DNA of 64,000 nt, taken from NCBI RefSeq assembly GCF_013407935.1, contig NZ_JACBZU010000003.1:62001-126000 (forward strand), read 5' to 3'. The position numbers and the translations under genes are program-made. This document shows, piece by piece, positions 8,076-55,904 of the stretch (its first letter is position 1; each line of letters starts with the position of its first letter). This stretch comes from Allomuricauda sp. ARW1Y1. Its GTDB lineage: Bacteria > Bacteroidota > Bacteroidia > Flavobacteriales > Flavobacteriaceae. The notes beneath the pieces are model-generated. The model was not told the DNA's origin and made no database searches. It saw nothing but the letters and a program-made list of their open reading frames with translations.

Positions 8076-8104
8076 AAATTAGAACATACCAAAAGAATAT
8101 ACAT

Positions 8105-9427: not shown

Positions 9428-9468
9428 TGCCAGAATACTGATAATAAGTTACAACAAGATTTACTGAT

Positions 9469-10826: not shown

Positions 10827-10910
10827 AATGGGCGGTCTTAAGATTTGGTACAGATTCATTTGGCAGTCACTTGACATCATTCCTATCGCTATGGAACATA
10901 AGAAGCAGTA

Positions 10911-12017: not shown

Positions 12018-12035
12018 ACAATTAAACAGAGTAAC

Positions 12036-12908: not shown

Positions 12909-13144
12909 GGCCCATTAAAGCGCTAACATTAATAAATAAATCATGGTTTCATTTATTGGAGCATGGTCACGATATCCGGGAATACTCATGCATCTAGATT
13001 TACTTGGGTTAACTTCGAAATTAACCAAATAGATACGTGGCATCATCGGGTTTATGAAAAGCCACGGAATTTAGTAAGTCCATTCTATCATGGTAATGCT
13101 TAATAACATGTGTAGTCTAAATACAAAAACAAATTTATGGTCAA

Positions 13145-23352: not shown

Positions 23353-24726
23353 TCAATTGGTAATTAAGGGGCTGTGTTTTTTTAAAGCATAGTTTTTTTC
23401 GAGGAACTTTTGGTCCAATTCCACATTGGAAATGGCAATGGCGGCTCCTAGGGCGGACCCAAGAGATGCGTCGGTAGTCTTGATTTCCATATGGTTAAGG
23501 CCTTTGGCCAATAATTCCACAAAAATTTGATTATTGGCAAAGCCCCCGTCAACGTACAACTGTTTGATATGCTCCTTTCCAATGGCACGTTTTATACTAT
23601 CTATCTGTAATTCCATCAACTCTATCATTAATTGGTGATAAGCCTCTTCATAAGAGTTAAAGTCCATGGCGGCAACGGACTTAGGTTTTGTAACCTCAAG
23701 GCTACTCCAGTCAAACCTATGTAAAAAATTATCTTTTAGTTTCTGATAAATGTTTGGATCAAACATGACAGACTGGTGATAATTGTCACCCACGTTAAAG
23801 TGCTTTTCAAGTTCCTTGATTTTAAGATTGTATTCATGGCCTAAAAACAAGCGTGCCGCTTTTACGGGAGCTCCATTGATACGCATGTAGTTGATACAAT
23901 TGGAATCCGTATCCTCGTCCGTCAGGAGTTGTTTTGAAAATGGATTGAGGGCAATGCTCCAGGTTCCTGTAGAAAGCAGCAGGAATTTTTTGTCAATACT
24001 GCGGATATAGGGCAAAAGGGCAGCTGAACTGTCGTGGATGCCCACACCTATCTTGATTTGGTGACCAAAGAGTTTGGAGTTGATACTGGTACCCGTATCC
24101 ACTATCGATGGCAATATCTTATGGATTTCCTCTTGATAGACCCAGTCGTGATAATCCTGCTTTTCATAGTTCCAAAGCGCAGTATGGCAACCGATACTGG
24201 TATATTCACTGACCGGAATTCCCGTAAACAAATAGCTTAGATATTGTGTTAAATGAAGTGAATGTTTGATTTTTGAAAATACGTCCGGTTTTTCGTGTTT
24301 TAACCAATACAATTGGATGCCCGAGTTGAGCATACCCTCCCGGGTGGTGCCTGTTTCCCTACAAAACTGTATCTCGGGTCCATACTGCGCATAGAACTTG
24401 TCAATGATGGCTGCATTGATAGGCTTTGTATAATTGTAGAGAGGTGTAACCACCTTTCCCATATCATCCAAATGGACAAAGCTTGCGCCATAGGATGAAA
24501 AATTGACCGCCTTTATTTTGTAATCCTTTGCTTTGAGTATGTCTTGAAAAGTACGTTGTACCCAACTCTCAAGTGCTTTCAGGTTCTCGGTGGGGTGTCC
24601 ATCCTCATCTTCAATGGTTTCCAAATAGGTGTAATCGCGATGGACTTCCCTAAAGTCCATATCAAAAAGGAAAAATTTTTTATTGGTCTTACCAATGTCA
24701 AAAACCGCAATTACTTCTTGTGCCAT
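23353..24726 (-). CDS. rhaB: L-rhamnulokinase (FGGY carbohydrate kinase)
   Basis: 457 residues, cytoplasmic. The N-terminal phosphate-binding loop AVFDIGKTNKKFFLFD, the GVGIHDSSAALLPYI segment with the catalytic Asp, LLSTGTWSIALNPF and QLYVDGGFANNQIFVELLA (adenosine motif) identify an FGGY-family kinase. Its place between rhaI and lldD assigns L-rhamnulose as substrate: rhamnulose + ATP gives rhamnulose-1-phosphate. It is 10 bases from rhaI and 1 base from lldD. It is more divergent than enteric RhaB, as is usual for Bacteroidota, so the symbol depends on context. Confidence 0.88.
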   Translation of the reverse strand: MAQEVIAVFDIGKTNKKFFLFDMDFREVHRDYTYLETIEDEDGHPTENLKALESWVQRTFQDILKAKDYKIKAVNFSSYGASFVHLDDMGKVVTPLYNYTKPINAAIIDKFYAQYGPEIQFCRETGTTREGMLNSGIQLYWLKHEKPDVFSKIKHSLHLTQYLSYLFTGIPVSEYTSIGCHTALWNYEKQDYHDWVYQEEIHKILPSIVDTGTSINSKLFGHQIKIGVGIHDSSAALLPYIRSIDKKFLLLSTGTWSIALNPFSKQLLTDEDTDSNCINYMRINGAPVKAARLFLGHEYNLKIKELEKHFNVGDNYHQSVMFDPNIYQKLKDNFLHRFDWSSLEVTKPKSVAAMDFNSYEEAYHQLMIELMELQIDSIKRAIGKEHIKQLYVDGGFANNQIFVELLAKGLNHMEIKTTDASLGSALGAAIAISNVELDQKFLEKNYALKKHSPLITN

Positions 24727-24736: not shown

Positions 24737-26017
24737 TTATAGGCCTGTTGCCATGGTATGTTTGCCTCTTTCGTCCACCAATTTTTTGCGAACTTTCAAA
24801 TTTCTGTAAGTGTCCAATGGGTTTAGCGCTCCTCCGTTGGATATCCTGGCCCGCTCCAATAGTGGGCGTATATCCGTAAGATAGGCTTCCTGTAAAATTT
24901 CCTGGCACAAGGTCACATCATGGTTCTGTTGTGCATCACGAAGGGCCTTTTGGTCTACCAATAATGCTTTTGCGTAGGACGAGCGTATGGCCTCCAATGA
25001 CTGCATCAAATCTTCCAAAGGGTCTTTTAGATTGTGACTGGCATCGATCATCCAAGCAGGGTAGGGATTCTGTGGATTGTTTTCCATGCCGTACACCAAT
25101 TCGTTGAAAATCAAAAATAGGGAATACGGTTTGATGCTCCCTACGGTAAGGTCGTCGTCCCCATATTTGCTATCGTTAAAATGAAATCCTCCCAACTTGC
25201 CCTTCATCATTAAAGTGGCGACTATCTGTTCAATATTGGTATTGGGCAAATGGTGGCCCAGATCGACCAAGGTATAGGCTTTTGGACCACATTCATTGGC
25301 CAACATAAAGGAAGTGCCCCAATCTTGGATTACCGTGCTATAGAAATTAGGCTCGTACGGTTTGTATTCAATAAAGAGCTTCCAATCCTCGGGTAAGGTA
25401 CTGTAGATTTGCTGCAAACTGTCCTGCGTATTTTTGAGTACGGTCTGGAAGTTGTTCTGTCCGGGAAAACTGGAACCATCGGCCAGCCATACGGTCAAAC
25501 TTTTGGACCCTAATTTTTCGCCCAGTCGAATGACATCGATATTGTGTTGTATGGCCTGTAGCCTCGCATTATCGTCCGTACTGCAGAGGGACCCGAACTT
25601 ATAGGAATGCCTTTGGTCGGGTTGGTCTTGAAAGGTATTGGAGTTCATGGCATCAAAAGTGAGCCCCAACGATTTGGTCAATGTCTTTATCTTTTCGGCA
25701 TCTTCCGGCACGTCCCAAGGGATGTGCAGGGAAATGGCGCCTGCTGATCTGGTAAGCGCATGAATGAGTCCAACGTCCTCAATTTTTTGCTCCAAAGTGC
25801 CCGGTTCACCATGGTATGAGAAACGACCAAAGCGTGTTCCTCCTGCACCCAAGGCCCAACTGGGAATGGCTACTTGAAAATCGCTTATTTTCTTTAGGAT
25901 ATGTTCAACATCAAAACCTTTTTTGGATAGGGTATTGGCCAAAAAATCAAAACTTTGATGGTGTTGGTCCAAGCTATTTTGATGTTGGTGGGCAATCCGT
26001 TCTTTATCGAGAATCAT
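24737..26017 (-). CDS. rhaI: L-rhamnose isomerase, RhaI type
   Basis: 426 residues from the ATG at 26017. A longer frame reaches an ATG at 26092 but would translate through a strong terminator hairpin, and its extra residues look unlike the family; MILDKERIAHQHQNSLD is the natural start. It is a TIM-barrel metal isomerase: SLHIPWDVPED, LFIEYKPYEPNFYSTVIQDWG, TLVDLGHHLPNTNIEQIVA and LGGFHFNDSKYGDDDLTVG carry the Glu, Asp and His metal ligands of the Pseudomonas-stutzeri-type rhamnose isomerase, which differs from the E. coli RhaA family in sequence. Converts L-rhamnose to L-rhamnulose. Second gene of the operon. Confidence 0.9.
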   Translation of the reverse strand: MILDKERIAHQHQNSLDQHHQSFDFLANTLSKKGFDVEHILKKISDFQVAIPSWALGAGGTRFGRFSYHGEPGTLEQKIEDVGLIHALTRSAGAISLHIPWDVPEDAEKIKTLTKSLGLTFDAMNSNTFQDQPDQRHSYKFGSLCSTDDNARLQAIQHNIDVIRLGEKLGSKSLTVWLADGSSFPGQNNFQTVLKNTQDSLQQIYSTLPEDWKLFIEYKPYEPNFYSTVIQDWGTSFMLANECGPKAYTLVDLGHHLPNTNIEQIVATLMMKGKLGGFHFNDSKYGDDDLTVGSIKPYSLFLIFNELVYGMENNPQNPYPAWMIDASHNLKDPLEDLMQSLEAIRSSYAKALLVDQKALRDAQQNHDVTLCQEILQEAYLTDIRPLLERARISNGGALNPLDTYRNLKVRKKLVDERGKHTMATGL

Positions 26018-26033
26018 ACATACTATTTTTTTG

Positions 26034-26071
26034 AAAAAATCCGCCGGTATGCATAAAGCCAACCAGCGGAT
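26034..26071 (-). terminator. Intrinsic terminator/attenuator between the aldolase-dehydrogenase gene and rhaI
   Basis: On the minus strand, ATCCGCTGGT and ACCGGCGGAT pair as a 10-bp stem (one G-U) around a 13-nt loop, followed directly by six T. This is a textbook rho-independent terminator. It ends 16 bases before the rhaI start, too close for a separate promoter, so rhaI-rhaB-lldD-permease must depend on read-through or attenuation. Confidence 0.82.
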
Positions 26072-26181
26072 CAACGTAACTAAACTAACCAACTAGTAAG
26101 TAATCTGACAAAGGTGTTGGTCAGCCCCTGTCATTTTCGTAATTCCATATTTTTATTTGGTCATGGAATAAGAGTCATTGA

Positions 26182-28281
26182 CTATCGTGTAAATGCGTTG
26201 GCCATGCCACCATCTACATTGATAATGTTTCCAGTACTTTTATCCAATAGCCCTACAAAAGCGAATACACCGTTGGCTATATCTTCTGGATATATAATTT
26301 CATTGAGCAGGTTTCGTTTGGCATAGTGGGCTGGCAGGTCTTCCACTTCAATGCCATAGGCCTTGGCACGGCCTTCGGCCCATTCACCTTCCCAGATTTT
26401 GCTTCCTACGATAACGCCATCGGGATTTACCGTATTCACACGTATTCCTTTACCGCCCAATTCTGCTGCCAATAAACGGACCATGTGTTGCTGTGCCGCT
26501 TTGGCGGTTCCGTAGCCCACGTTGTTGGGTCCGGACACCAAACCATTTTTGCTGGCGATGCTGATGATATCTCCGCCCAAATCTTGCTTGTTCATAATGT
26601 CCACTCCTTGTTTAAAGAGCTCGAACTGTCCTTTTACCAGTACGTTTTGAAGTAAGTCCCAGTCTTGCTCGGTGGTCTCTGCCAAGGGTTTTGAAATGGC
26701 CAAACCTGCACTGTGTACGATCAGGTCCACGCCCCCAAATTCCAAACAAGCGGACTTATAAGCATCTTCTATGGATACTGAGTTGGTCACATCACACACG
26801 GCATAGCTTGCTGTATCCCTTGGGTAGGTTTCCATGGCCTCTTTTAATCGGTCTTCGGCGATATCCGTCAAAACCACATTGGCCCCTTGTTCGGTAAGTT
26901 TATCGGCAATGGCCTTACCGATTCCGCCTCCAGCACCAGTGACCAAGGCCACTTTTCTGGACAAAGGCTTCTCTTTGGGCATCCGTTGCAATTTCGCCTC
27001 TTCCAATAGCCAATATTCGATATTAAATGCCTCTTGCCATGGCAAGGAGGTGTATGCCGAAATGGCTTCTGCGCCGCGCATTACGTTGATGGCATTGATA
27101 TAGAATTCACTCGCCACACGGGTGGTCTGCTTGTTTTTGGCAAAGCTGAACATCCCAATTCCCGGATAGATAATGATGACCGGGTTGGGGTCTCGCATCG
27201 GAGGACTGTTATCGTGCTTGCACGTATCATAGTATTTGCGATACTGGCTTCGGTATTGTTCAAATGCTGGTTCCAGTTTTTTGAGAATGTCACCGCTATT
27301 GGATAGGTTCTCTTCGGTATCCAACGGAAGTACCAAGGGTTGTATTTTAGTGCGCAAAAAATGATCGGGACATGAGGTTCCCATCGGCGCCAGTCTTTCC
27401 AGGTCATGGCTATTAATGAACTCCATAACCACATCGGCATCGGTAAAATGCCCGATCATTCGGTTCTCGGAGGAACATAATCCACGTAGCAAAGGCATCA
27501 ATTGTGCCGCTTTTTGTTTTCTGGCCTCTGAGGGGAGTGATTTAATCTTTTCACCACCAAAAATTTGATACTTCGATTTTGTTTTGTTTGCAATATATTC
27601 AGAAGCCATTTCGATGACTTCCAGACTGTTGATGTAGCATTCATATGAAGTGTCACCCCATGTGAACAGACCATGGCTTTCCAGCACTATACCGCGTATA
27701 CCAGGGTTCTCGTTCAAGCACTTTTCCAATTGAAGCCCAAGGTCGAAGCCTGGTCGCTGCCATGGCACCCAGCCCATGGTGTCTCCCCAAATTTCCTTGG
27801 TCACTTTTTCACTGTCTTCGGCAGCTGCAACGGCAATCAAAGCATCGGGGTGTAAGTGATCAATGTGCTTAAAGGGCAACAGGCCATGCAAAGGGGTGTC
27901 GATGGAAGGCGCACGGCTGTCCAAGTCATAGATACAATGGTTAAATAGGCCCACCATCCTATCCTCATCGTGAAGTCCGGTATAAACTTTCTTTAAGTTT
28001 CTTAAACGTTGGGTATACAAGCCGGCGATTCCCGATCGGGTCAGGGTACCAATATCACCTCCAGATCCTTTAATCCACATCACTTCGACCTCTTCATTGG
28101 TCAACGGATCCTTTTCCATGGTCTTACAACTGGTATTACCACCTCCATAGTTGGTAATCCTAAGATCGGCACCAAGAATATTTGAGCGGTACAAAAACAG
28201 GCCTACCTGATCATCGCCTAGCGCTGCCGCTTTTTGGTCATCCCACAAATAATCTACATGCTTAAAAACTTTAGTCTGCAT
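26182..28281 (-). CDS. rhaEW: Bifunctional rhamnulose-1-phosphate aldolase / L-lactaldehyde dehydrogenase
   Basis: 699 residues with two domains. Residues 1 to about 420 are a class II aldolase: TPLHGLLPFKHIDHLHPDALIAVAA holds zinc-binding His residues, and ESHGLFTWGDTSYECY another conserved block. From about 430 an SDR dehydrogenase follows: KVALVTGAGGGIGKAIADKL (NAD site), NNVGYGTAKAAQQHMVR (catalytic Tyr and Lys), RVNTVNPDGVIVG. Known from rhamnose-pathway studies (RhaEW type, as Bacillus YuxG): cleaves rhamnulose-1-phosphate to DHAP and L-lactaldehyde and oxidises the latter to L-lactate. First gene of the rhamnose operon, with the shared 17-bp motif upstream. Confidence 0.92.
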   Translation of the reverse strand: MQTKVFKHVDYLWDDQKAAALGDDQVGLFLYRSNILGADLRITNYGGGNTSCKTMEKDPLTNEEVEVMWIKGSGGDIGTLTRSGIAGLYTQRLRNLKKVYTGLHDEDRMVGLFNHCIYDLDSRAPSIDTPLHGLLPFKHIDHLHPDALIAVAAAEDSEKVTKEIWGDTMGWVPWQRPGFDLGLQLEKCLNENPGIRGIVLESHGLFTWGDTSYECYINSLEVIEMASEYIANKTKSKYQIFGGEKIKSLPSEARKQKAAQLMPLLRGLCSSENRMIGHFTDADVVMEFINSHDLERLAPMGTSCPDHFLRTKIQPLVLPLDTEENLSNSGDILKKLEPAFEQYRSQYRKYYDTCKHDNSPPMRDPNPVIIIYPGIGMFSFAKNKQTTRVASEFYINAINVMRGAEAISAYTSLPWQEAFNIEYWLLEEAKLQRMPKEKPLSRKVALVTGAGGGIGKAIADKLTEQGANVVLTDIAEDRLKEAMETYPRDTASYAVCDVTNSVSIEDAYKSACLEFGGVDLIVHSAGLAISKPLAETTEQDWDLLQNVLVKGQFELFKQGVDIMNKQDLGGDIISIASKNGLVSGPNNVGYGTAKAAQQHMVRLLAAELGGKGIRVNTVNPDGVIVGSKIWEGEWAEGRAKAYGIEVEDLPAHYAKRNLLNEIIYPEDIANGVFAFVGLLDKSTGNIINVDGGMANAFTR

Positions 28282-28328
28282 TATTTACTATTTTGATTTC
28301 GAATGTACAGCAATGCCATAGGATAAGC

Positions 28329-28345
28329 ATCCTGTACTATACTGT
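28329..28345 (-). promoter_or_regulatory. Predicted operator, site 1 (rhamnose operon)
   Basis: Minus-strand sequence ACAGTATAGTACAGGAT, 47 bases before the aldolase-dehydrogenase start and in the interval shared with the divergent GntR-type gene. It matches sites at 29554-29570 and 36582-36598 with one mismatch each. It contains GTA-N3-TAC, compatible with the GT...AC symmetry of GntR-family operators. Confidence 0.7.
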
Positions 28346-28456
28346 TCGATAACATTTGGGTGATAATGGGTTGTGTAGGTGTCCTTATTTTTTGGGACAG
28401 GCTGCAAATAAATTACATTATCTTCATACCCTAAAATCAGGAACAATTGTTTACAC

Positions 28457-29509
28457 ATGAACATAAATTCAGTTGGGCACATAAAGGTTGATGTTGATTC
28501 ACGTATTCCAAAATACAAACAAATTGTGGATTCCTTGGTAACAAGTATTGCGAATGGGGATCTTGCGTATGGGGATAAAATACCATCGATCAATGAAGTG
28601 AGTGAAGAATGTCTGTTGTCCAGGGACACCGTGGAAAAAGCGTATACTATTTTAAAGGAGCAACGGATTATAGTTTCAGTGCGGGGAAAGGGCTTTTATG
28701 TGGCAGAGACGGATATTAAATCAAAAAGGAGCGTACTCTTTTTGATCAATAAACTGAGCAATTATAAAATGCGGATATATAATTCTTTCGTACAGGCCAT
28801 TGGTAGCGATACAAAAGTAGATTTGGATATTTATCACTGTGAGCCATCTGTATTTTCCGATATCCTGGAACGCAAGCTAAAGGAATATGACCATTTTGTT
28901 ATCATGGCCCATTTCAAGGATGCCCATCGGCATCACACTGGCTGCTCCGAGGAGATTTTACAGCTGATCAGGAGTATTCCCCCTGAAAAATTAATTATAC
29001 TTGACAGGGACATAGAGACCCTGTCCTTAAAAACAGGCCGTATATTCCAGGATTTCAAGGATGATATATACAATGCCTTAAATACGGGTCTTTCCAAAAT
29101 AGACAAGTACAAGAAAATGGTTCTCGTTTACCCCAGCAAAGCTTTATACCCCTATCCCAAGGATATCGTGGTGGGATTCAAAAAATTCTGTATTCATCAT
29201 GATTTCGACTTTGAGGTTTTGGACGAAATTTATGAAGGGATGGAGCTTCAAAACAAGGACCTTTATATTACCATTGCTGAAACCGATTTGGTCAATTTGG
29301 TAAAACAAGTCAGGGATGCCCATTTGGAATTGGGAAAAGACATTGGCGTCATCTCTTATAACGACACCCCTTTGAAAGAACTTTTAGGTATAACCGTGAT
29401 CAGTACAGACTTTACAAAAATGGGAGAAAAGGCGGCGCGAATGATACTTGAAAATAAGCGGGAGACCGTTTTGAACGACTTTAACTTTATCCATCGAAAG
29501 TCCTTGTAG
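28457..29509 (+). CDS. GntR-type regulator with periplasmic-binding-like effector domain
   Basis: 350 residues. Residues 10-80 are a GntR winged helix (IPKYKQIVDSLVTSIANGDL, KIPSINEVSEECLLSRDTVEKAYTIL, VRGKGFYV). From about 90 the protein resembles the LacI/periplasmic-binding sugar-sensing fold rather than the FCD or UTRA domains (KSKRSVLFLINKLSNYKMRI, VISYNDTPLKELLGITVIS, MGEKAARMIL), a combination common in Bacteroidota. It is divergent from the rhamnose operon and is flanked by sites 1 and 2 of the shared motif. The strongest inference is that it senses rhamnose or a derivative and controls both the rhamnose operon and the SusCD locus. Sign of control unknown. Confidence 0.88.
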   Translation: MNINSVGHIKVDVDSRIPKYKQIVDSLVTSIANGDLAYGDKIPSINEVSEECLLSRDTVEKAYTILKEQRIIVSVRGKGFYVAETDIKSKRSVLFLINKLSNYKMRIYNSFVQAIGSDTKVDLDIYHCEPSVFSDILERKLKEYDHFVIMAHFKDAHRHHTGCSEEILQLIRSIPPEKLIILDRDIETLSLKTGRIFQDFKDDIYNALNTGLSKIDKYKKMVLVYPSKALYPYPKDIVVGFKKFCIHHDFDFEVLDEIYEGMELQNKDLYITIAETDLVNLVKQVRDAHLELGKDIGVISYNDTPLKELLGITVISTDFTKMGEKAARMILENKRETVLNDFNFIHRKSL

Positions 29510-29553
29510 ACCGATATCCAAAAGGCTTTTTTTCGCAAACACTTATTGACCCT

Positions 29554-29570
29554 ACAGTACAGTACAGGAT
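29554..29570 (+). promoter_or_regulatory. Predicted operator, site 2 (susC)
   Basis: ACAGTACAGTACAGGAT, one mismatch to site 1. Here it is part of three direct TACAG units. It lies 33 bases upstream of the -7 box, near -54 relative to the expected start, a position that would suit an activator. Confidence 0.68.
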
Positions 29571-29603
29571 AGATTTCTTTTTTTATCATGTTACTATTGG
29601 AGG

Positions 29604-29611
29604 TAGGTTTG
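29604..29611 (+). promoter_or_regulatory. Bacteroidota-type -7 promoter element for susC
   Basis: TAGGTTTG matches the Bacteroidota sigma consensus TAnnTTTG exactly. The -33 position falls in a T-rich tract near 29578-29584. The predicted start near 29616 leaves a leader of about 75 bases before the susC ATG. Confidence 0.6.
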
Positions 29612-29690
29612 GTAGTGTATACCGTACACATTACGTTCAATTCACCCATACCAAGAAACAATTACGCATAAATTAACTAAACTCAACATT

Positions 29691-32600
29691 ATGAAAGAAA
29701 TGTCAATGGAAAGGTGCTATCTTGACATTCGGAAAGCATCTTTTTTTCTTTTTCTTTTCACGGTTTTAGGCATATTCTCCGCCTTTGCCCAAGAAAGAAC
29801 AATCAATGGTAATGTAACGGGTCCCGATGGGATGCCGTTGCCAGGAGCCAGTGTGGTGGTCAAGGGGCTGCCCATTGGTGTATCCACGGATTTTGATGGC
29901 AACTACACCATTTCAGTACCACAAGCACAGAATGTCCTTGTGTTCTCGTATGTCGGTATGATTCAGCAGGAGGTAGCTATTGATGGAAGAAGTTCCATAA
30001 ATGTCGCTTTGAAGGAGGATACGGCCCAACTGGATGAAGTAGTGGTTATTGGCTATGGTACTCGTAACCGGGAGGATTTGACCGGAGCGGTATCCACCAT
30101 TCAAGCCAAAGGTATTGAAGAACAGCCCATCACTACGTTTGAGCAGGCACTTTCGGGTCAAGTTTCAGGGGTGCAATTACGGCAAAACGGTGCGCCCGGT
30201 GGGGGGCCTGAAATCCTGATTCGAGGTGTTGCTTCTACAGGCGGCAATAATGCTCCATTATATGTGGTGGATGGAATACCCTTGGGAAATGTGGATAGCC
30301 AAAGGGATAATTTTGTGCTCAGTTCCATCGACCCAAACAGTATTGAATCCATAAGTGTACTTAAGGACGCATCTGCCAAGGCCATCTATGGATCTCGGGC
30401 ATCCAATGGTGTTGTGGTCATTACGACCAAACGTGGAAAAAGAGGCAAACCGACCATTACTTTCGGCACGTCCACGGGCTTTCAGTCCATTCCTGAATTT
30501 GAACAGCCGGATGTATTGAATGCGGAAGAATTGAGACGCTATCGAATAGAATTTTTTGAAGATAAACTTTTTGCCACGGGAGCTTTGGGACCGAACGAAA
30601 TAGCGGATTTGGACCGCTTGATTCGGTTGGGAGAATTAGGTGAAGGGACCAATTGGTTTGATGAAATAACTCGAAGTGCTCCCATTTCAGAGTACAATAT
30701 TGGGGTTAACGGAGGTACGGAAAATGTACGGTACAATATTTCAACAAACTATACCAATCAGGATGGTACTTTGATCAATACCAATTTTAAACGCTATAGT
30801 ATTAGGGCAAATCTGGATGTCAACGTAACTGACAACATTCGATTTGGTCTGAATTTGGCACCTACACAAATTCTCGCCACTGGTGGCAGGACAGATGCCG
30901 GTGCCAATAACTTTAATATCTTTGCCGCCGTACCTTTGTCCCGGTGGACCGATCCTTCTGCACCTGTTTTCGATGAAAATGGCGAATTGACCAATGTGGC
31001 ATTAGGGCAGTTAATACCTTTTTATAATGTAAACCCGGTGTACTTAATGACCGGCAGGGAAGATAACAGACGAACCAATCAATTATTGGCTGGTTCCTTT
31101 GTGGAAGTGGATTTGATGGAAGGACTGACGGCTAAAACCTTTGGGTCCATTCAGTACACCGATCGAAGAAGTACGGCATTTCAACCTTCTGATTTCCCTG
31201 GTGAAGGCGCTTTGACACCAAATCTATTGGGGACTAGGCAAGCTAGTGCCAGTATAGGTGAGTCCACCAACTTTAATTGGATTTGGGAAAATACCCTGAC
31301 GTACTCCACAACAATAGCTGATGCACATCGGATTGATGTACTAGCTGGTTTTACCATGGAAAACAGAAGATTTGATAACACCAGCATCAATGCGGTGAAT
31401 ATCATCGATGAATCCATTACCATTCCAAGTTCAGGGAATACAGACCCTGAAAACGTCAATAACTTTACAGGGGGCGGGGATTCCGGCGAGAACAGTTTGG
31501 TATCACTTATTGGTAGATTGGATTACGCCTATAAAAATAGATATTATGTAACTGGAACCATCCGTAGGGACGGCTCTTCACGCTTTGGTGCCAATACCAG
31601 ATATGGAAATTTCCCATCCGTGGCAGCGGCATGGCGTATATCCAACGAGCCCTTTTGGGAAAAACTTAAAAATACAGTTTCCGAGTTTAAACTTGAAGGG
31701 GGATATGGTATCAGTGGTAGTAATGCCAATATTGGGAACTTTCAGGCACAGGGGACGATTTCTGGTGGCCCAGACTATATCTTGGGTGGTGAGCTTGCGC
31801 CGGGTAGCGCGGTTTCTGAATTGCCAAATTCGTTGTTAACTTGGGAGGAGGCAAAAGAACTCAATTTAGGTCTTGATCTGGGCTTTTTAAACGATAAAAT
31901 TTTCTTGGGAATCGATTATTATGATATTGAGACAGAGGGATTTCTTTCTGGATTGCCCTTGCCGACAACTTCAGGTTTTAGCAATATTCTGACCAATCTG
32001 GGAAGTATTGAAAATAAAGGTGTGGAAGTGGAGCTCCGTTTAAGTAATGTGTTAAATGGCAATGATTTTCAATGGGATGCCAATTTTAATTTTACCCGTA
32101 ACCGCAGTAAAGTTCTTGAACTTGCCGCTGAATCCGGTTTTATTAGAAGAGGCGCTATCGCACGAACCTTTACGGAAACAGCGGTCGGTGAAGAAGTCGG
32201 ACTTTATCGTGGCTTCAATGTTACTGGGTTGTTTACGCAGGCCGAAATCGATGATCCCAATGTTCCCAAATACCCTGGGGCAGTTGAGGGTTCATTGAAA
32301 TATGAGGATGGCAACGGAGACGGTGTTTTGGGGGATGAGGAAGATTTTATAATCATAGGAAATCCCAATCCCGATTTCATCTATGGTATGGTGCATAACT
32401 TCCGTTATAAGGATTTGGATTTGAGCATCATATTTTCGGGAGCCGTAGGTCAACAGATATTTAATGGTACCAACCAATATAATGGTAATCAGGATGGCGT
32501 TTTCAACGTCGACAGAAGACAATTGGAACGCTGGCGTCCAGGCGACAATCCGGCCACTAGCACCATACCTGGTACTGCCAGTGACATCAGCAGACAAAGA

Positions 32601-32876
32601 TTCCGTCTGCCCAACTCTCTTTCAGTTGACGATGCGGATTACCTCTGGGTCAGAAATATCACCCTAGGCTATAATCTTAAAGGTGAGCTCATTGGAAACG
32701 TTTTCAAGAATGCACGGATCTATACCAGTATCCAAAACCCATTCTTGTTTACCGAGTATGATATGGGCAACCCTGAAATCAACCGTTCCGGTGATACGGC
32801 CCTGGTAAGGAATGTGAACTACGGGGCGTATCCTATTTCAAGAATCTACACGCTTGGTGTAAATGTTACATTTTAA
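29691..32876 (+). CDS. susC: SusC-like TonB-dependent outer-membrane receptor
   Basis: 1061 residues. A signal peptide ends near AFAQ; residues about 36-115 are a carboxypeptidase-like regulatory beta-sandwich (INGNVTGPDGMPLPGASVVV), followed by the SusC-type TonB box region DEVVVIGYGTRNREDLTG, the plug (LSGQVSGVQLRQNGAPGG, ILIRGVAS, PLYVVDGIPLGNV, SVLKDASAKAIYGSRASNGV) and a 22-strand-type barrel ending with the terminal aromatic VNVTF. Imports oligosaccharides with its SusD partner, whose start overlaps it when counted from the first ATG. Other possible starts are at 29700 and 29706. First gene of the polysaccharide locus; operator and promoter directly upstream. Confidence 0.95.
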   Translation: MKEMSMERCYLDIRKASFFLFLFTVLGIFSAFAQERTINGNVTGPDGMPLPGASVVVKGLPIGVSTDFDGNYTISVPQAQNVLVFSYVGMIQQEVAIDGRSSINVALKEDTAQLDEVVVIGYGTRNREDLTGAVSTIQAKGIEEQPITTFEQALSGQVSGVQLRQNGAPGGGPEILIRGVASTGGNNAPLYVVDGIPLGNVDSQRDNFVLSSIDPNSIESISVLKDASAKAIYGSRASNGVVVITTKRGKRGKPTITFGTSTGFQSIPEFEQPDVLNAEELRRYRIEFFEDKLFATGALGPNEIADLDRLIRLGELGEGTNWFDEITRSAPISEYNIGVNGGTENVRYNISTNYTNQDGTLINTNFKRYSIRANLDVNVTDNIRFGLNLAPTQILATGGRTDAGANNFNIFAAVPLSRWTDPSAPVFDENGELTNVALGQLIPFYNVNPVYLMTGREDNRRTNQLLAGSFVEVDLMEGLTAKTFGSIQYTDRRSTAFQPSDFPGEGALTPNLLGTRQASASIGESTNFNWIWENTLTYSTTIADAHRIDVLAGFTMENRRFDNTSINAVNIIDESITIPSSGNTDPENVNNFTGGGDSGENSLVSLIGRLDYAYKNRYYVTGTIRRDGSSRFGANTRYGNFPSVAAAWRISNEPFWEKLKNTVSEFKLEGGYGISGSNANIGNFQAQGTISGGPDYILGGELAPGSAVSELPNSLLTWEEAKELNLGLDLGFLNDKIFLGIDYYDIETEGFLSGLPLPTTSGFSNILTNLGSIENKGVEVELRLSNVLNGNDFQWDANFNFTRNRSKVLELAAESGFIRRGAIARTFTETAVGEEVGLYRGFNVTGLFTQAEIDDPNVPKYPGAVEGSLKYEDGNGDGVLGDEEDFIIIGNPNPDFIYGMVHNFRYKDLDLSIIFSGAVGQQIFNGTNQYNGNQDGVFNVDRRQLERWRPGDNPATSTIPGTASDISRQRFRLPNSLSVDDADYLWVRNITLGYNLKGELIGNVFKNARIYTSIQNPFLFTEYDMGNPEINRSGDTALVRNVNYGAYPISRIYTLGVNVTF

Positions 32877-32886
32877 AAATACTGTG

Positions 32887-34350
32887 ATGAAAAACAATAT
32901 CATAACATCAATCTTACTAGTGACCACGGTATTCCTTTTTATGGGCTGTGATGACTTTTTGGACGAAACTCCCGAAACGTTTCGGACTCCCCAAAACTTC
33001 TTTGAGACCGAAGCACAAATAAATGAGGCCGTAGCGGGAATCTACAATACCAATCGTGGTCTCATGAACGGCGCCCATTGGCGTTTTGGTGAAAACCGAT
33101 CCGATAATACCAGTTTTCAATTCAATCCTGCCGATAGGGGTGGAATCAACGATGAAGAAGTCGATTTGTTTTTGATGCTATCGGCCAATCCAAACCTTGC
33201 TGGATATTGGAACACCAGTTACTCGGGTATTTCTAGGGCAAACTTTGCTTTGGAGAACATTGATCGTGTTGATTTCAACAATGAAGCTTTGAGGGACGTT
33301 CGTCGTGGTGAGATTTTGTTCCTGCGAAGCTGGTTCTATTTTAATTTGGTACAACTCTTTGGCGATGTGCCCTACGTGACCTCGGCGGGTGATACTCCAG
33401 ATGAGATATTATCCGATGAATTCTTGGAGCGGGTACCTGTGGCACAGGTCTATGAAAATATTATGGCAGATGCACAATTGGCCATTGATTTTTTACCGAA
33501 CCCCGGAAATACGGAAAGCGGTCGAGCTACAAGGGGTGCGGCCTTGATGCTCAAGGCTAAAATGCACATGGCGCTTCAAGAATTTCAAGCGGCTGAGGAA
33601 TTGTTGGAAGAAATGCAAGGTTTGGGCTATTCCTTACAGGCTGACTATGCCAGTGTATTTGCTCCCGACAACAAGAATAACAGTGAGCTGGTATTTGAGA
33701 TCCAATATTCCTTTGCACTGGGACAGGCGTCCAACTTTGTGTCGCGCTTTGTTCCATTTAATAGTGGAAACGATATTCTTGGGGACAGCGGACCAGCGGG
33801 CTCAAGGGCGGGACAAAACCAGCCCACCCAGAGTTTGATCGACTTATACGATGCCGATGACACTCGTTTTACGCATAATATTTCTTTTTATGATGATGGG
33901 ACTACAGTGGAGCCTTGGATGAGCAAATTCAATTATGGGTTTGAAGATCAAGGCTTGCAGGATGTTAACTTCCCGATGTTCCGTTATGCCGATGCCCTTT
34001 TGATGTTGGCCGAGTGTTATGCAGAAACAGGTGGAGGTGACCCGATTCCTTTATTATTGGAGGTAAGGGGCAGATCTATGCCAGACCCCAGTTTGAGTAT
34101 GGAGGAAACATCGGATCTTGAGCAGACCATTGCCGATGAACGTAGAAGGGAACTGGCTTTTGAAAATCACAGATGGTTTGATCTATTGCGCACAGGTAAG
34201 GCAGTGGAAGTCATGACTGCTCATGGTATTCAACAGAAAGCTGAAAAAGCTACAGTCCCTGTGGAGGCATATACCAATATTAGAACCTTGTTGGGGCTCC
34301 CCCTAGGCCAAGTGGAGGAATTTAGTTTTACACAAAATGAAGGATGGTAG
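32887..34350 (+). CDS. susD: SusD/RagB-like surface glycan-binding lipoprotein
   Basis: 487 residues from the ATG at 32887, which gives MKNNIITSILLVTTVFLFMGC with the lipoprotein Cys; the in-frame ATG at 32863 lies inside susC and adds charged residues. SusD features: CDDFLDETPETFRTPQNFF, AVAGIYNTNRG, LRSWFYFNLVQLFGDVPY (TPR-like helix), and a C-terminal NFPMFRYADALLMLAECYAETG followed by DERRRELAFENHRWFDLLRTG. It forms the extracellular lid over SusC and determines glycan capture. Gap to susC is 10 bases. Confidence 0.95.
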   Translation: MKNNIITSILLVTTVFLFMGCDDFLDETPETFRTPQNFFETEAQINEAVAGIYNTNRGLMNGAHWRFGENRSDNTSFQFNPADRGGINDEEVDLFLMLSANPNLAGYWNTSYSGISRANFALENIDRVDFNNEALRDVRRGEILFLRSWFYFNLVQLFGDVPYVTSAGDTPDEILSDEFLERVPVAQVYENIMADAQLAIDFLPNPGNTESGRATRGAALMLKAKMHMALQEFQAAEELLEEMQGLGYSLQADYASVFAPDNKNNSELVFEIQYSFALGQASNFVSRFVPFNSGNDILGDSGPAGSRAGQNQPTQSLIDLYDADDTRFTHNISFYDDGTTVEPWMSKFNYGFEDQGLQDVNFPMFRYADALLMLAECYAETGGGDPIPLLLEVRGRSMPDPSLSMEETSDLEQTIADERRRELAFENHRWFDLLRTGKAVEVMTAHGIQQKAEKATVPVEAYTNIRTLLGLPLGQVEEFSFTQNEGW

Positions 34351-34394
34351 TTCGTAGGATCTGGCCAATATTAATTAGTAAAAAACTTGACAAT

Positions 34395-36185
34395 ATGAAG
34401 ACTTTGTTCAACACTGCGTTAAAGCTCCTTTCGGTCCTGACCCTTATTCTATGGGTCGGATGCAAAGAGGATGACCCAGTCCTGGGTGCACCATACACTC
34501 TATTTACGTTTGAGGTTACCGATCTAACCGTTACTTTTAGCAATGGGTCGGTAGATAATCCAAATAGTTACAATTGGGATTTTGGCGATGGGCAATCGTC
34601 CACAGAAGAAAATCCGACCCATACCTACGAGGAAGGTGGTACCTATATGGTGGTTCTTACCACCAGCAATGGTGCTGGAGAAGATCAATTTCAAAGAGAG
34701 GTTACCGTCACTGAACCTGAAGTACCCCTACCTCCTGTAGTTTTCGAAACATTTGATGGTTATCCTGTCAATGCTAGTGTCGAAGGGCAAGGTGCTGCTT
34801 CCGATGGATGGGCAGGTGCATGGACGAAATTGACTGGAGATGACGTTACTGTTGTCACAGGTGGAGTTGTCAATAATGACATTGCCGTGGCCACTACCGG
34901 AAATTCCCTTTTATTGGATGCAAGCGGGGCAAATACGCGTTACAAACGTATTTTTGAGACTCCCTATCTGGATAACGGTAATACATATTGGTTTGCTTTT
35001 CAAGCAGAATTTGCCAATACTGATCTGGATGGTGGTGAAGTGCAGGTAATGCTTGTCGATAACGATGCCGAGGATTTTGGAGCCGGTGGCGGTGATGGCC
35101 AATTCTTGGGTATCGGTAAAACCATAACTCCTGGAGCACTCGGCGTCATGACTTTTGGGCCGTTTAACAATGTGGAAGCAACAACCGAAACTGCAGAAGG
35201 TCCGCTGTGGCTTGTGGCCAAGATAGAAACCAACGGTACAGCAGATCCAGATGTGGTCAAATTGTTTGTCAATCCTACTCCGGGAACCGAACCAGTGGAT
35301 GGCACAGAAGCAGTGACCTTCAATGCTCCTGAACTGAGTGGTGGCTGGCAGGGCGTTGGCTTCAAATATACAGGCGGCAATGCCTCTAGCGTAAAGATCG
35401 ATGATATTTACGTTGGCAACACCTATCAAGAAGTTACCCCACTCAATTATGTGGAGCTCCCACCAGCGGTATTTGATTCCTTTGATGACTATACCGTTGA
35501 TGCCTCTGTGAATGGCCAGGGTACGGCAGCAAATGGATGGGCAGGTCCTTGGACGTTGTTATCTGGTGGTGATGTGAATGTGGTGTCGGGAGGTATCGTC
35601 AACAGCACACTTTCCGTGGAAACAACAGGGAATTCCATGTTGTTGGATGCCAGTGTCGGTGCTTCACGTTACAAACGAGGGTTGACCGAACCCATATTGG
35701 ATGATGGACGGACCTATTGGTTTGCCTTCCAAGCAGAATTTAGTGGTGCGCTTGATGATACGGGTGAATTGGTTGTCATGCTCGTAGATAATGATGCAGA
35801 GGATTTTGGCGGAGGTGGACCCAATGGACAATTTTTGGGTATAGGTAAAACCATTAGTGCAGGAGCACCTCTTGGTATTATGACCTTCGGACCTTTTAAC
35901 AATGTAGACGCTACTGATGTATCCGTGGAAGATGGTCCACTATGGGTGGTGGCCAAAATTGAAACCAATGGAACAGCAGACCCCGATTTGGTAAGGGTTT
36001 TTGTCAATCCATCTCCTGGAACTTCACCAGCCAATGGAACAGAGGCAGTGTCGTTCGCGGCCCCTGAACTGAACGGTGGTTGGCAGGGCATAGGGTTTAA
36101 GTTTAGTGGCGGTACCACCACTGCGAAAATCGATGACATTTATTTGGGATATCGTTTTGCAGATGTTACCCCTGAAAACTATTAA
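34395..36185 (+). CDS. PKD-domain surface glycan-binding lipoprotein with tandem repeat domain
   Basis: 596 residues from the ATG at 34395, which gives a lipoprotein signal ending LWVGCKEDD; an upstream ATG at 34344 would overlap susD. Residues about 25-108 form a PKD domain (SYNWDFGDGQSSTEENPTHTYEEGG). Two homologous ~235-residue domains follow (about 115-352 and 358-596), each opening VFxxFDxYxVxASVxGQG and sharing TYWFAFQAEF, VMLVDNDAEDFG, QFLGIGKTI, MTFGPFNNV, VAKIETNGTADPD, and GGWQGxGFK. They look like jelly-roll lectin-type domains. The position right after susD suggests a SusE/F-like surface glycan-binding protein. No catalytic motif seen. Confidence 0.85.
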   Translation: MKTLFNTALKLLSVLTLILWVGCKEDDPVLGAPYTLFTFEVTDLTVTFSNGSVDNPNSYNWDFGDGQSSTEENPTHTYEEGGTYMVVLTTSNGAGEDQFQREVTVTEPEVPLPPVVFETFDGYPVNASVEGQGAASDGWAGAWTKLTGDDVTVVTGGVVNNDIAVATTGNSLLLDASGANTRYKRIFETPYLDNGNTYWFAFQAEFANTDLDGGEVQVMLVDNDAEDFGAGGGDGQFLGIGKTITPGALGVMTFGPFNNVEATTETAEGPLWLVAKIETNGTADPDVVKLFVNPTPGTEPVDGTEAVTFNAPELSGGWQGVGFKYTGGNASSVKIDDIYVGNTYQEVTPLNYVELPPAVFDSFDDYTVDASVNGQGTAANGWAGPWTLLSGGDVNVVSGGIVNSTLSVETTGNSMLLDASVGASRYKRGLTEPILDDGRTYWFAFQAEFSGALDDTGELVVMLVDNDAEDFGGGGPNGQFLGIGKTISAGAPLGIMTFGPFNNVDATDVSVEDGPLWVVAKIETNGTADPDLVRVFVNPSPGTSPANGTEAVSFAAPELNGGWQGIGFKFSGGTTTAKIDDIYLGYRFADVTPENY

Positions 36186-36293
36186 GAGTGGTGGAAGTAT
36201 GATACTACCTTGTTGATAAGGTTAATCTTTGTGTCAACTGGCCGTAGTCGTTTATCATTTATTGCAAAATCAACTAAGATGGGCGCAACGGAA

Positions 36294-36312
36294 ATACAAA
36301 ATTATTTTGTAT
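36294..36312. repeat. Perfect 19-bp palindrome after the glycan-binding-protein gene
   Basis: ATACAAAAT-T-ATTTTGTAT: two 9-bp arms around a single base, 109 bases after the stop. It could be a regulator site or an mRNA hairpin; the terminator at 36339 lies just after it. Confidence 0.5.
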
Positions 36313-36338
36313 CGTATTTTAGATTTGAGTTAGTAATT

Positions 36339-36372
36339 GGCGGTATATCCTTTTTGTGATGTACCGCCTTTT
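36339..36372 (+). terminator. Intrinsic terminator of the SusCD transcript
   Basis: GGCGGTATAT and ATGTACCGCC pair as a 10-bp stem (one G-U) around a 10-nt loop and are followed by four T. It separates the SusC-SusD-binding-protein transcript from the enzyme operon that starts at 36647. Confidence 0.75.
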
Positions 36373-36581
36373 CCATTTAAACAATAGGGGTCATCTTTCC
36401 TTTTCAATCGATTGGGAATTACCAACCATAGGTGAATTAGGCACATCTAAAGAGAATCCCTGAAACAGTCATAATCACGTTTTGTGGATATAAATCAATA
36501 GTTGGTATTGTGGTACGGTAGCCCCTCGGTACTTGGCTTTCTGTAACTTATGATCAAAGGCAATCGCCAGTATTGTTTGCA

Positions 36582-36598
36582 ACAGTATAGTGCAGGAT
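36582..36598 (+). promoter_or_regulatory. Predicted operator, site 3 (enzyme operon)
   Basis: ACAGTATAGTGCAGGAT, one mismatch to site 1, 48 bases before the GH2 start, nearly the same spacing as site 1 (47). The preceding A is also shared with site 1. An in-frame ATG at 36590 lies inside this motif and is not the true start. Confidence 0.7.
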
Positions 36599-36646
36599 AC
36601 TTTTTTTGAATCAATTTCTTTTCTTGTCCCCAACAATTGGCCCTGT

Positions 36647-39600
36647 ATGCATAAAATCACTTTCTTGTTTTTTTTTCTGTTGATACCCTTGGTTGTTTTG
36701 GCACAGGGCAATATGCCGTGGCAAACACCTGATATTGTTAAAATAAACAAGCTTCCTGCAAGGGCTACCTCTATTTCCTATCCTGATCTAAAGCTTGCAA
36801 GACAGGCCGATAGGGATGCATCGCCCTTTAAAAGATCCTTGAACGGGGCATGGCGGTTTTTCTGGACAGCATCTCCAGATTTGGCGCCCGATGGATTTTA
36901 CAAAAAGGATTATAATGATGAGACATGGGATAACATTCCTGTTCCCTCCAATTGGGAATTGCAGGGTTATGGAAAGCCTTGGCAACGATTGACCCCAGAA
37001 ATTTGGAAGGATATACAAATTTCTTTTCCACATATTCCAGAGGACTACAACCCCACCGGTTCCTATCGAAAAGTGGTAAGTTTGCCAGAGACTTGGGAGA
37101 ACAAACAAATCACATTGCACATCGGTGCGGCCTCATCTGCTTTTCGTGTCTGGGTCAATTCACAATTCGTTGGATATAGTGAGGACAACAGGCTTCCAGC
37201 TGAATTTGACATTACTTCTTATCTCCGACAAGGCGACAATCTTATAGCGCTACAGGTACTCCAATGGAGTGATGGAAGCTATATAGAGGATCAGGATCAT
37301 TGGAGGATGAGCGGCATCACTAGGGAGGTGTATCTTGAGGCATCGCCTCAAGTACAGATTTATGATTTTGCGGTCAGGACCGAATTGGATGATACCTTTA
37401 CGGATGCACAATTACAAATCCGTCCAGAAATCAAAAATTATGCTTCCAAGGACATTTCCAACTATGTGATCGAAGCTTACCTGTACGATGCCGATAACAC
37501 TGCTGTTCTGGATTCCCCCTTTACGCTCCCTGTCGCCAAACTGCTGAACGAATATCATCCGCAAATAGGAAACCGTCCTTTTGAAAACCTAATGGATCGT
37601 ACCATTAGGAATCCAAAAAAATGGTCGGCAGAAGACCCCAACCTTTATACCTTGGTGCTGGCGTTAAGGGATGAAGAGGGGAAACTGGTGGAAGCACGAA
37701 GTACACGTATCGGTTTCAGGGAAATTGATACACAAGACGGTCAGTTTAGGGTTAATGGTATCCCAGTCCTCCTGTATGGCGTCAACAGACATGATTGGGA
37801 TGCCACTATGGGCAAAGCGGTTACCAAGGAAGCTATGCGACGTGATGTGGAACTAATGAAAAAGCTCAATGTGAACGCTTCAAGATCTTCACATTATCCC
37901 AATCCCCCTTATTGGTACGAATTGTGCGACGAATATGGTATCTATGTGATGGATGAAGCAAATATAGAAAGCCATGGACTTGGTTCTTTACCGAGTAATT
38001 CCCCAGATTGGCATACCGCATTTATGGAACGAGGAATACGTATGGTCGAAAGGGACAAAAATTATCCGAGTATCGTCAGTTGGTCGCTAGGAAATGAGGC
38101 CGGTTTTGGTCCGAATCATGCCGCCATTTCAGCATGGATAAAGGAATTTGATCCCACAAGGCCCGTTCACTATGAAGGTGCCCAAAACATTTATGGCTAT
38201 CGCTGGCCTTCACCAGAGCCTAAGGACAGGGTCTATACGGATATTATTTCTAGAATGTACCGTCTTACGGAAGATATGGTTGCCCTAGCGACCCAGACCG
38301 GAGACAATCGACCCATTATTTGGTGCGAATATGCCCATTCACAAGGAAATTCTACCGGTGATTTGGCTGGTTATTGGGAGGCCATCAGAAAATATCACCG
38401 ATTGGTTGGGGGATTCGTGTGGGACTGGAGAGATCAACTGATTACCAAACCTTCCGGAGATGGGAAAACCTTGTGGAAATTTGGAACCGATTACAATCAG
38501 GCACACGATGACCTGTTACCGATTCAAAAAGGATTGATCTCTGCCGATGGGAAAATCAAATCAGGGGGTTGGCAGGCAAAATATGTTTGGCAGCGAGCGG
38601 AGTTTATCCCCGACAACCTTGAGGAAGGAGAGATTACTCTTAAGAATTGGTTTTCTAGAACCAACCTCGATCGGTTTAATTTGAAATGGGAGATTACCGA
38701 AGATGGTAAAATCATAGCGGAAGCGCTTACAATTGCTCCTTCCATTCAGCCCGGTGGCAGTGGCGCTGTCAAATTGAAGTTACCAAGTGTGGAGCGAAAA
38801 GCAGGAAAACACTATTATCTTAACTTGAGCCTGTTGCTCAAACAAGATGAATTATGGGCCGAAAAAGGGTACTCCATAGCGCATCAGCAATTTAGTTTGG
38901 GCCATATTCCCGCTAAGGATATGGAAGCAAGGGAAGCTACGTTAAGCATGGTAAAGGATGCCACTAAATGGGTGGTAAAAAGCGGCGATACCGAATTCAG
39001 TATCAATAGTAAAACAGGATATTTGAATCGTATGACTTATGAGGGAATCCCACTGATTTCGGGTCCCTTAAAACCTAATTTTTGGAGAGCCCTAACGGAT
39101 AATGATCTTGCCTCTGGGTTGCTTGAACGACAGGGTTTTTGGAAGCAAATAACAGATGGTTTGGAACTGGAACACATGGAAAGTTACCCGTACTGGAATG
39201 GCATAGTGGTAAAAACCCAATATTCCACTGCAGATGCTACTTTGCGGCTGGAACAGACCTGTACATTTGTAGAAAACAATACCTTGCAAATCCACTTTAG
39301 GATGATTCCTTCGGAAGATTTGCCCGATATTCCTAGAATTGGAATGGAAACCAGTATTCCAAACAGCTACAATCGGATGGAATGGTTGGGTAGGGGACCG
39401 TGGGAAACCTATGCCGATAAGAGGTCGGGAGCTTTGATTGCCCGTTATTCAGCCAATGTTGAAGATGATTTTACTTATTATGTACGACCCCAAGAAAGCA
39501 GCAACAAAACGGATGTCCACTGGGTTACGCTGACCAATCAAGATCATTTGGGTCTAAAAATTGAAAGTATGGACCAACCCATCAATTTTAGTGCGAAACC

Positions 39601-39799
39601 TTTTTCACAAAAACAATTGGAACTGGCAACCCGCATTGAAGAGCTGGGTTTTTCAGACAAGATATTCCTTCACATAGACCATAAGCAAATGGGGGTCGGA
39701 GGAGATAATACCTGGAGCATGGACGCCGCGCCGCACAAGGAATTTAGAATACCCGCAAAGGTTTATGATTACAGTTTTAAGATTCAAGTAGCAAAATGA
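36647..39799 (+). CDS. GH2 beta-galactosidase (LacZ-type), first copy
   Basis: 1050 residues from the ATG at 36647, which gives a signal peptide MHKITFLFFFLLIPLVVLAQ; the longer frame from 36590 starts inside the operator. Domain order is the LacZ type: jelly roll ([13 protein letters not shown]), immunoglobulin-like, TIM barrel with [32 protein letters not shown], acid/base Glu in WSLGNEAGFGPNH and nucleophile Glu in [15 protein letters not shown], then the C-terminal Bgal small-chain domain ending GVGGDNTWSMDAAPHKEFR. Exported, probably periplasmic. Overlaps the GH78 gene by 4 bases. Probably removes terminal beta-galactose; GH2 also includes other specificities. Confidence 0.92.
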   Translation: MHKITFLFFFLLIPLVVLAQGNMPWQTPDIVKINKLPARATSISYPDLKLARQADRDASPFKRSLNGAWRFFWTASPDLAPDGFYKKDYNDETWDNIPVPSNWELQGYGKPWQRLTPEIWKDIQISFPHIPEDYNPTGSYRKVVSLPETWENKQITLHIGAASSAFRVWVNSQFVGYSEDNRLPAEFDITSYLRQGDNLIALQVLQWSDGSYIEDQDHWRMSGITREVYLEASPQVQIYDFAVRTELDDTFTDAQLQIRPEIKNYASKDISNYVIEAYLYDADNTAVLDSPFTLPVAKLLNEYHPQIGNRPFENLMDRTIRNPKKWSAEDPNLYTLVLALRDEEGKLVEARSTRIGFREIDTQDGQFRVNGIPVLLYGVNRHDWDATMGKAVTKEAMRRDVELMKKLNVNASRSSHYPNPPYWYELCDEYGIYVMDEANIESHGLGSLPSNSPDWHTAFMERGIRMVERDKNYPSIVSWSLGNEAGFGPNHAAISAWIKEFDPTRPVHYEGAQNIYGYRWPSPEPKDRVYTDIISRMYRLTEDMVALATQTGDNRPIIWCEYAHSQGNSTGDLAGYWEAIRKYHRLVGGFVWDWRDQLITKPSGDGKTLWKFGTDYNQAHDDLLPIQKGLISADGKIKSGGWQAKYVWQRAEFIPDNLEEGEITLKNWFSRTNLDRFNLKWEITEDGKIIAEALTIAPSIQPGGSGAVKLKLPSVERKAGKHYYLNLSLLLKQDELWAEKGYSIAHQQFSLGHIPAKDMEAREATLSMVKDATKWVVKSGDTEFSINSKTGYLNRMTYEGIPLISGPLKPNFWRALTDNDLASGLLERQGFWKQITDGLELEHMESYPYWNGIVVKTQYSTADATLRLEQTCTFVENNTLQIHFRMIPSEDLPDIPRIGMETSIPNSYNRMEWLGRGPWETYADKRSGALIARYSANVEDDFTYYVRPQESSNKTDVHWVTLTNQDHLGLKIESMDQPINFSAKPFSQKQLELATRIEELGFSDKIFLHIDHKQMGVGGDNTWSMDAAPHKEFRIPAKVYDYSFKIQVAK

Positions 39800-42162: not shown

Positions 42163-42204
42163 ACGATTATGGACATACCTTCAACCGGTAAATGCAATTG
42201 ATAT

Positions 42205-43620: not shown

Positions 43621-43627
43621 AATTTAC

Positions 43628-44656: not shown

Positions 44657-44671
44657 TATCTTAAGTAACAC

Positions 44672-46118: not shown

Positions 46119-49337
<3,219 letters not shown>

Positions 49338-49413
49338 AAAATGAGCGATTAAAACTACATTTTAACCAACAAAGGGTTCCTTGCTCAAAGGTCCCTTATA
49401 AAAATTAAATGTC

Positions 49414-50841: not shown

Positions 50842-51006
50842 ACACCTTCATGATGTGATAAAGTGGAGAGTCAAATGTCAATCATGAAAAATGGCCAGCC
50901 CTGTATTGTATAATAATATCGGGATGTATTTGTTCGCTATCCAGATAATCTAGGCATGCACCAAAGAGAGCAGTATGCATTTTATGAGTTGTAGTTACAT
51001 TATTCC

Positions 51007-52125: not shown

Positions 52126-52134
52126 AACAACACT

Positions 52135-54809: not shown

Positions 54810-54813
54810 CAAA

Positions 54814-55866: not shown

Positions 55867-55904
55867 ATTGAAGCATTTGATTACCTTCGTCTAAATCACC
55901 CAAA

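Follow-up and report, generated by a model that had tools for sequence, protein, structure and literature searches.

We analyzed a 64,000-nucleotide stretch of the genome of Allomuricauda sp. ARW1Y1 (Flavobacteriaceae; contig NZ_JACBZU010000003.1, positions 62,001 to 126,000; hereafter the window), in which a 17-bp word precedes three operons for the use of rhamnose and polysaccharides. Our sequence comparisons suggest that this word is the operator of the product of the adjacent gene, a GntR/LacI chimera here called RhaR, which probably binds it head-to-tail at a class II position and serves as a rhamnose-responsive activator. The regulon predicted for this genome consists of three promoters, those of the rha operon, of susCD and of an operon for GH2, GH78, RhaT and sulfatase proteins (GH, glycoside hydrolase). 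The original prediction had likewise joined rhamnose catabolism, SusCD and the GH operon into one GntR regulon, and this proposal is supported by the co-occurrence of regulator and site, by their joint changes and by confinement of the motif to the locus. The three copies of the word that it had named, 28329-28345 (minus strand), 29554-29570 (plus) and 36582-36598 (plus), were all exact, and their distances of 47, 120 and 48 bases from the start codons agreed with our measurements (the GH2 ATG is at 36647). It overlooked the fixed 19-bp spacing between the motif and the -7 promoter box, which is the feature bearing most on mechanism. Site 1, ACAGTATAG-T-ACAGGATGC (28327-28345, minus), lies 5' of the rhaEW operon and has the -7 box TACATTCG (28300-28307, minus) exactly 19 bp downstream. 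Site 2, ACAGTACAG-T-ACAGGATAG (29554-29572, plus), lies 5' of susC and is followed at 19 bp by the -7-like box TACTATTG (29592-29599, plus), a TAnnATTG variant also present upstream of susC in loci L059-L062. Site 3, ACAGTATAG-T-GCAGGATAC (36582-36600, plus), lies 5' of the GH2 operon, with TTTCTTGT (36620-36627, plus), a poor match, at the -7 position.

The regulator gene rhaR (P0001; 28457-29509, plus) encodes 350 amino acids. Its N-terminal winged helix (residues 19-82) belongs to the GntR family (PF00392, 47.2 bits against a cut-off of 27), and its C-terminal domain narrowly passed as a GalR/LacI-like sensor (PF13377, Peripla_BP_3, 27.2 bits against 26.5). A structure model of RhaR (predicted local distance difference test score, pLDDT, 87.5; predicted template modeling score, pTM, 0.65) matched LacI-family structures in a Foldseek search (best E 3.3e-11, template modeling (TM) score by query about 0.5), and a sequence comparison matched its DNA-binding domain to the one in AraR (4egy, E 5.7e-6). 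RhaR has no other homologue in its own genome at E 1e-3. It falls outside the AraC, DeoR and LacI types of known RhaR regulons, since its DNA-binding domain is of GntR type and its likeness to LacI is confined to the sensor.

The motif is kept in relatives of the window. A profile scan of genome contigs provided 588 confirmed loci, the best 80 of which span Flavobacteriaceae, Chryseobacterium, Cyclobacterium, Cytophagaceae and Saprospiraceae and commonly have rhaEW adjoining gntR. With the window included, they yielded 57 usable rhaEW upstream regions, 45 of them non-redundant. The 9-mers of the motif were at the top of the enriched words in the 57 regions (other enriched words were attributed to near-identical Flavobacterium promoters), and de novo expectation maximization on the 45 regions with 40 random starts found it in all 8 best runs listed. 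It was present in 39 of the 45 regions, every copy being oriented towards rhaEW. Besides, a matrix scan of 1,622,499 bases gave 153 matches of at least 16 bits, whereas 10 column-shuffled matrices gave 5.6 on average and 13 at most. Of the 397 family genomes sampled, 86 contained a composite pattern (405 matches, versus 6 for the reversed control).

The operator consists of two 9-bp half-sites arranged head-to-tail with a 10-bp period, a degenerate distal ACAGTAYAG and a nearly invariant proximal ACAGGAYRS. A second half-site lay 10 bp upstream in 65 of 101 sites (>5 bits), a set picked for a good -7 box and searched with a matrix that contained both halves; inverted copies occurred in at most 2 of the 101. 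The inverted GTA-N3-TAC symmetry previously proposed was therefore rejected, and the direct TACAG units that had also been read at site 2 came nearer to the actual tandem architecture. Evidence independent of this selection comes from arrays 5' of susC in which 3-4 half-site units recur every 10 bp (L097 18761-18799, L124 13425-13453, L129 12133-12171 and L137 13104-13142).

Spacing to the promoter formed no part of the motif search. All 39 rhaEW promoters with the motif had TA at +20/+21 and TT at +24/+25 past it, which puts the motif 19 bp ahead of a TAnnTT box, and 33 of them also had the G of TAnnTTTG. We then collected 123 intergenic sites of at least 18 bits, with arrays collapsed and the box defined as TAnnTT or TAnnnTTG. 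The box was at 19 bp in 97 sites and at 20 bp in 21; the next commonest spacing, 10 bp (16 sites), came nearly entirely from related Flavobacterium rhaT promoters. When rhaEW sites and 21 rhaT sites were set aside, the remaining 63, which are independent of the motif training set, had the box at 19 bp in 57 cases and at 20 bp in one; no other spacing between 8 and 35 bp accounted for more than three. For 115 of the 123 sites a gene start lay no more than 250 bp ahead in the direction of reading; 4 had one on the opposite side only and 4 on neither side. The box is the flavobacterial -7 element of the ordinary sigma-A type, whose position in F. psychrophilum is reported as -12 to -5 (PMC9723704). 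Taken from that position, the 19-bp lock places the motif at about -50 to -32 with its center at about -41, a fixed distance from the promoter as in class II systems. Class II activators have sites centered near -41.5 and adjoining the -35/-33 region, so that tight spacing, single orientation and a center at about -41 form the pattern expected of such an activator. The Flavobacterium rhaT promoters (e.g. L077, L092 and L127) have the box at 20 rather than 19 bp and AAAGGA in the distal half.

We propose that two winged-helix domains, flexibly linked to a LacI-like sensor dimer, would bind one face of the DNA one helical turn apart, which would explain the direct repeat, and that the downstream winged helix would be positioned to touch RNA polymerase. 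With L-rhamnose or an early catabolite bound to its sensor, effectors suggested by the target genes, RhaR would activate, in class II fashion, the rha and GH/sulfatase operons and the genes of the SusCD importer. The arrangement of the sites makes activation the likely mode of action. Several points, however, weigh against this interpretation. Most GntR proteins, AraR included, are repressors, and tight spacing could also be seen with a repressor that occupies the -33 region. Loss of the -33 TTG, which none of the 39 rhaEW promoters carries, was considered as proof of activation and set aside as weak: it says little because ordinary boxes of the same loci have TTG in only 12 of 63 cases. The -7 box at site 3 of the window is poor, and transcription of the GH operon may therefore be weak or differently driven. 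In six Flavobacterium clusters no site precedes rhaEW; rhaT intervenes there, and the site precedes rhaT with 20-bp spacing. In 40 of the 101 sites a half-site also scores when offset by 5 bp, which we ascribe to the repetitive nature of ACAGTACAG itself, and the periodicity may be finer than 10 bp. The 19-bp rule fails in a third clade of GntR/LacI paralogues (L156-L164, L166-L169, L174 and L175; helix SRDTV[LI]-A[FY]N). These have a tandem ACTRGTAGG near their own gntR in 15 of 15 loci (weak in L160), with TAnnTT at 19 bp in 3 (L157, L159 and L175), at 20 bp in 4 (L156, L164, L166 and L174) and at neither distance in 8. Finally, the limit by which we define a close GntR relative of RhaR (E <1e-90) was fixed after the list was seen, and the compared genomes share kinship, so that no weight was put on a P-value for the co-occurrence of regulator and site.

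In a rival model, regulator and operator are the same, but RhaR is a repressor sitting over the -33 region and released by rhamnose. AraR, the best-known GntR/LacI chimera, is described as a repressor (PMC4218819), as is the flavobacterial GntR protein AusR for alginate genes (PMC8286568), and the RhaR DNA-binding domain resembles that of AraR. The near-fixing of the spacing to the base pair, the predominance of one orientation and the center at about -41 speak against repression, which we consider unlikely though a serious competitor of activation.

Far less probable is that the motif is bound by a sigma factor or by a transcription factor other than RhaR and that the GntR gene is a mere neighbor. 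GntR binding is read here from sequence, and the motif does sit in the promoter core; the -7 box, however, is of the ordinary sigma-A type, and the site follows the regulator across genomes. Among the 397 family genomes, rhaEW was present in 94 and a close GntR in 79. The composite site occurred in 77 of these 79 versus 9 of the 318 others, with 395 of the 405 matches falling in the 79, and the two exceptions (G173 and G348) do carry the site with more mismatches. Within the 94 rhaEW genomes, the site was found in 76 of 78 with a close GntR versus 4 of 16 without, and in none of the six that had rhaEW but no GntR match at 1e-30 (L149-L154).

The half-site also changes along with the recognition helix of the GntR protein. 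Seven genomes had rhaEW together with a diverged GntR (approximately 40-43% identity) whose helix read DTVVRAY, DTVVKAY or DTIVRAY. In four of them (L139, L140, L142 and L143) the rhaEW promoter consists of CAGAAC followed by N19 and TAnnTT; in L141 it is degenerate, and in L144 and L148 the regulator gene and rhaEW are not neighbors. Thus, helix EKAY pairs with half-site ACAGGAY and VRAY or VKAY with ACAGAAC, the spacing being unchanged. Exact CAGAAC composite matches numbered 9 in the 397 genomes, all within five of the seven diverged-GntR genomes; the other 22 CAGAAC matches listed had one mismatch and were near background (reversed control 18), some being type I sites. One of the seven, G384, belongs to the same genus as the window, and its RhaEW is 91% identical. 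Conversely, similarly distant regulators with an EKAY helix (L145 and L146) retain ACAGGA-type half-sites: the L145 site scores 16.9 bits, and in L146 the proximal half alone was identified by eye 19 bp ahead of TAAATTTG, with a matrix score below 14 bits. Regulator residues 60-61 therefore appear to track half-site bases 5-7, a correlation across few switches, and this natural swap of regulator and half-site is a ready test of DNA recognition. To us it is evenly balanced whether GntR/LacI chimeras form a large clade of true class II activators in Bacteroidota, using tandem 10-bp half-sites in strict -7 register with a readable helix code in which E-K at residues 60-61 specifies G-A-T/C at bases 5-7 and V-R or V-K specifies A-A-C. 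If true, a clade-wide code would let regulons of uncharacterized polysaccharide utilization loci (PULs) be read straight from sequence. Since a generic scan of 30 paralogue loci for any 10-bp direct repeat followed by N19 and TAnnTT gave no excess over other spacings, generality was examined on named motifs only.

Chance recurrence of a word within one window, to which the frequency of similar 17-mer pairs in random windows might point, is refuted by position, orientation and spacing kept in relatives and by the presence of the composite pattern in 63 of the 237 genera sampled; it is this recurrence in other genera, seen in sequence, that settles that the motif is real. The chance of below 0.001 previously attached to the word was misapplied. 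The word had been picked after looking, and such a figure is valid for one pre-named word, not for some recurring word; pairs of 17-mers with at most one mismatch numbered 30 in the real window and 10-22 in 12 random windows of equal dinucleotide make-up. For the fixed degenerate pattern, shuffled windows gave an expectation of 0.00 at zero mismatches and 0.31 at up to three. In the whole genome (3,525,743 bases), zero-mismatch copies were the three window sites only. Weaker copies included one with 2 mismatches and 24 with 3 (28 in total with the exact ones, versus 7 for the reversed pattern), and none of these 25 had TAnnTT at +19.

Members of the AraR subfamily are described as combining a GntR winged helix with a GalR/LacI-like sensor and as controlling sugar catabolism and polymer degradation (PMC4494728, PMC4218819). 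AraR of Bacillus subtilis shares this construction with RhaR, but it is reported to repress through palindromes of the form At(T/A)tGTaCGTAcaa(A/T)T, whereas the RhaR site is a 10-bp direct repeat fixed ahead of the -7 box and shows no palindromic operator of the AraR type; PMC4218819 also cites work on the spacing and relative orientation of core motifs. Regulators named RhaR in Bacteroides and elsewhere (AraC, DeoR and LacI types) likewise govern rhaEW-type rhamnose pathways, and those of the AraC and DeoR types have been reported to use direct-repeat motifs (PMC3870299). They belong to other protein families, and GntR has no occurrence in the available text of that paper (PMC3870299). MocR-type GntR regulators (GabR, PdxR and TauR) resemble RhaR as proposed here in the GntR domain, in direct repeats on one DNA face, in activation and in a divergent target gene (PMC5320631). 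They differ in having an aminotransferase-like sensor and direct repeats separated by two or three helical turns, compared with a LacI-like sensor and one turn in RhaR. Direct-repeat binding such as we propose has been reported for the GntR proteins NanR, NagQ and FarR (PMC4494728). AusR of Zobellia galactanivorans, compared here by description only, is also a GntR-family regulator of a flavobacterial polysaccharide system, but differs in that it represses its alginate genes (PMC8286568). The titles and beginnings of abstracts listed from the open-licence literature gave no report of a GntR-type rhamnose regulator in Bacteroidota, which is no proof of absence. The known control of PULs in Bacteroidota is mainly by hybrid two-component, SusR and extracytoplasmic function (ECF) sigma factor systems. 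In the present locus one sugar-sensing protein appears to govern monosaccharide catabolism, an outer-membrane importer and polymer-degrading enzymes via one promoter grammar, and this grammar (two half-sites, 19 bp and TAnnTTTG) would make the regulon predictable.

On the minus strand of the locus are rhaEW, for rhamnulose-1-phosphate aldolase/lactaldehyde dehydrogenase (26182-28281; TIGR02632 and NF006191 above cut-off), an L-rhamnose isomerase-type protein (24737-26092; TIGR02629 E 8.8e-153, under its curated cut-off), an FGGY kinase that is probably a rhamnulokinase (23353-24726; rhamnulokinase models under cut-off) and a protein resembling the FMN-dependent L-lactate dehydrogenase LldD by profile matches (22206-23351). 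They are followed by P0004 (20756-22165, minus), a conserved hydrophobic protein of 469 amino acids for which a Pfam search gave no match and a PDB sequence search nothing informative. P0004 has a RhaR site of its own in four relatives (L071, L085, L105 and L110), which makes it a candidate L-rhamnose permease. On the plus strand, a SusC-like TonB-dependent receptor (29691-32876), assigned by its own sequence and its place ahead of susD, precedes a SusD-like lipoprotein (32863-34350; Pfam profile) and a PKD-domain surface protein (34344-36185; Pfam profile and sequence), which by eye has two seemingly similar halves of about 230 residues each beyond the PKD domain. A terminator-like hairpin (36339-36368, plus) marks the boundary between the susCD unit and the GH operon; the hairpin scan overall gave 11 such sites versus 9.1 expected. 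Profile matches on the plus strand assigned a GH2 family enzyme as the first gene of this operon (36647-39799), followed by an alpha-L-rhamnosidase-like enzyme (GH78 type), an isomerase, RhaT and a sulfatase (39796-46111). The genes at 46119-57071 (plus; GH2, GH43-like, aldose epimerase, sulfatase, galactokinase, GalT and FGE-like, also by profile matches) probably continue it. At the -7 position of the GH2 promoter (36620-36627) there is a TTTCTTG that is shared with the L131 site (near 5134), where TTTCTTGC downstream resembles TTTCTTGT; perhaps TTTCTTG is a real weak -7 variant.

Other features were also observed. Some genomes had far more composite sites than others, among them G396 (16 matches), G265 (12) and G011, G129, G212 and G227 (11 each). 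Pfam scans of 39 open reading frames of the window agreed with the original prediction that no hybrid two-component, AraC or ECF regulator is present; other regulators do occur, namely a LytTR regulator (14097-14984) and, near the edge of the window, a membrane histidine kinase (60098-61627) and an NrtR-type (AraR/XylR-like) regulator (61742-62479). Another glycan-use cluster, at 114-13840, contains GH20, a Kelch/sodium-symporter fusion, a SASA esterase, a GH109-like protein, a GHMP kinase and a nucleotidyl transferase.

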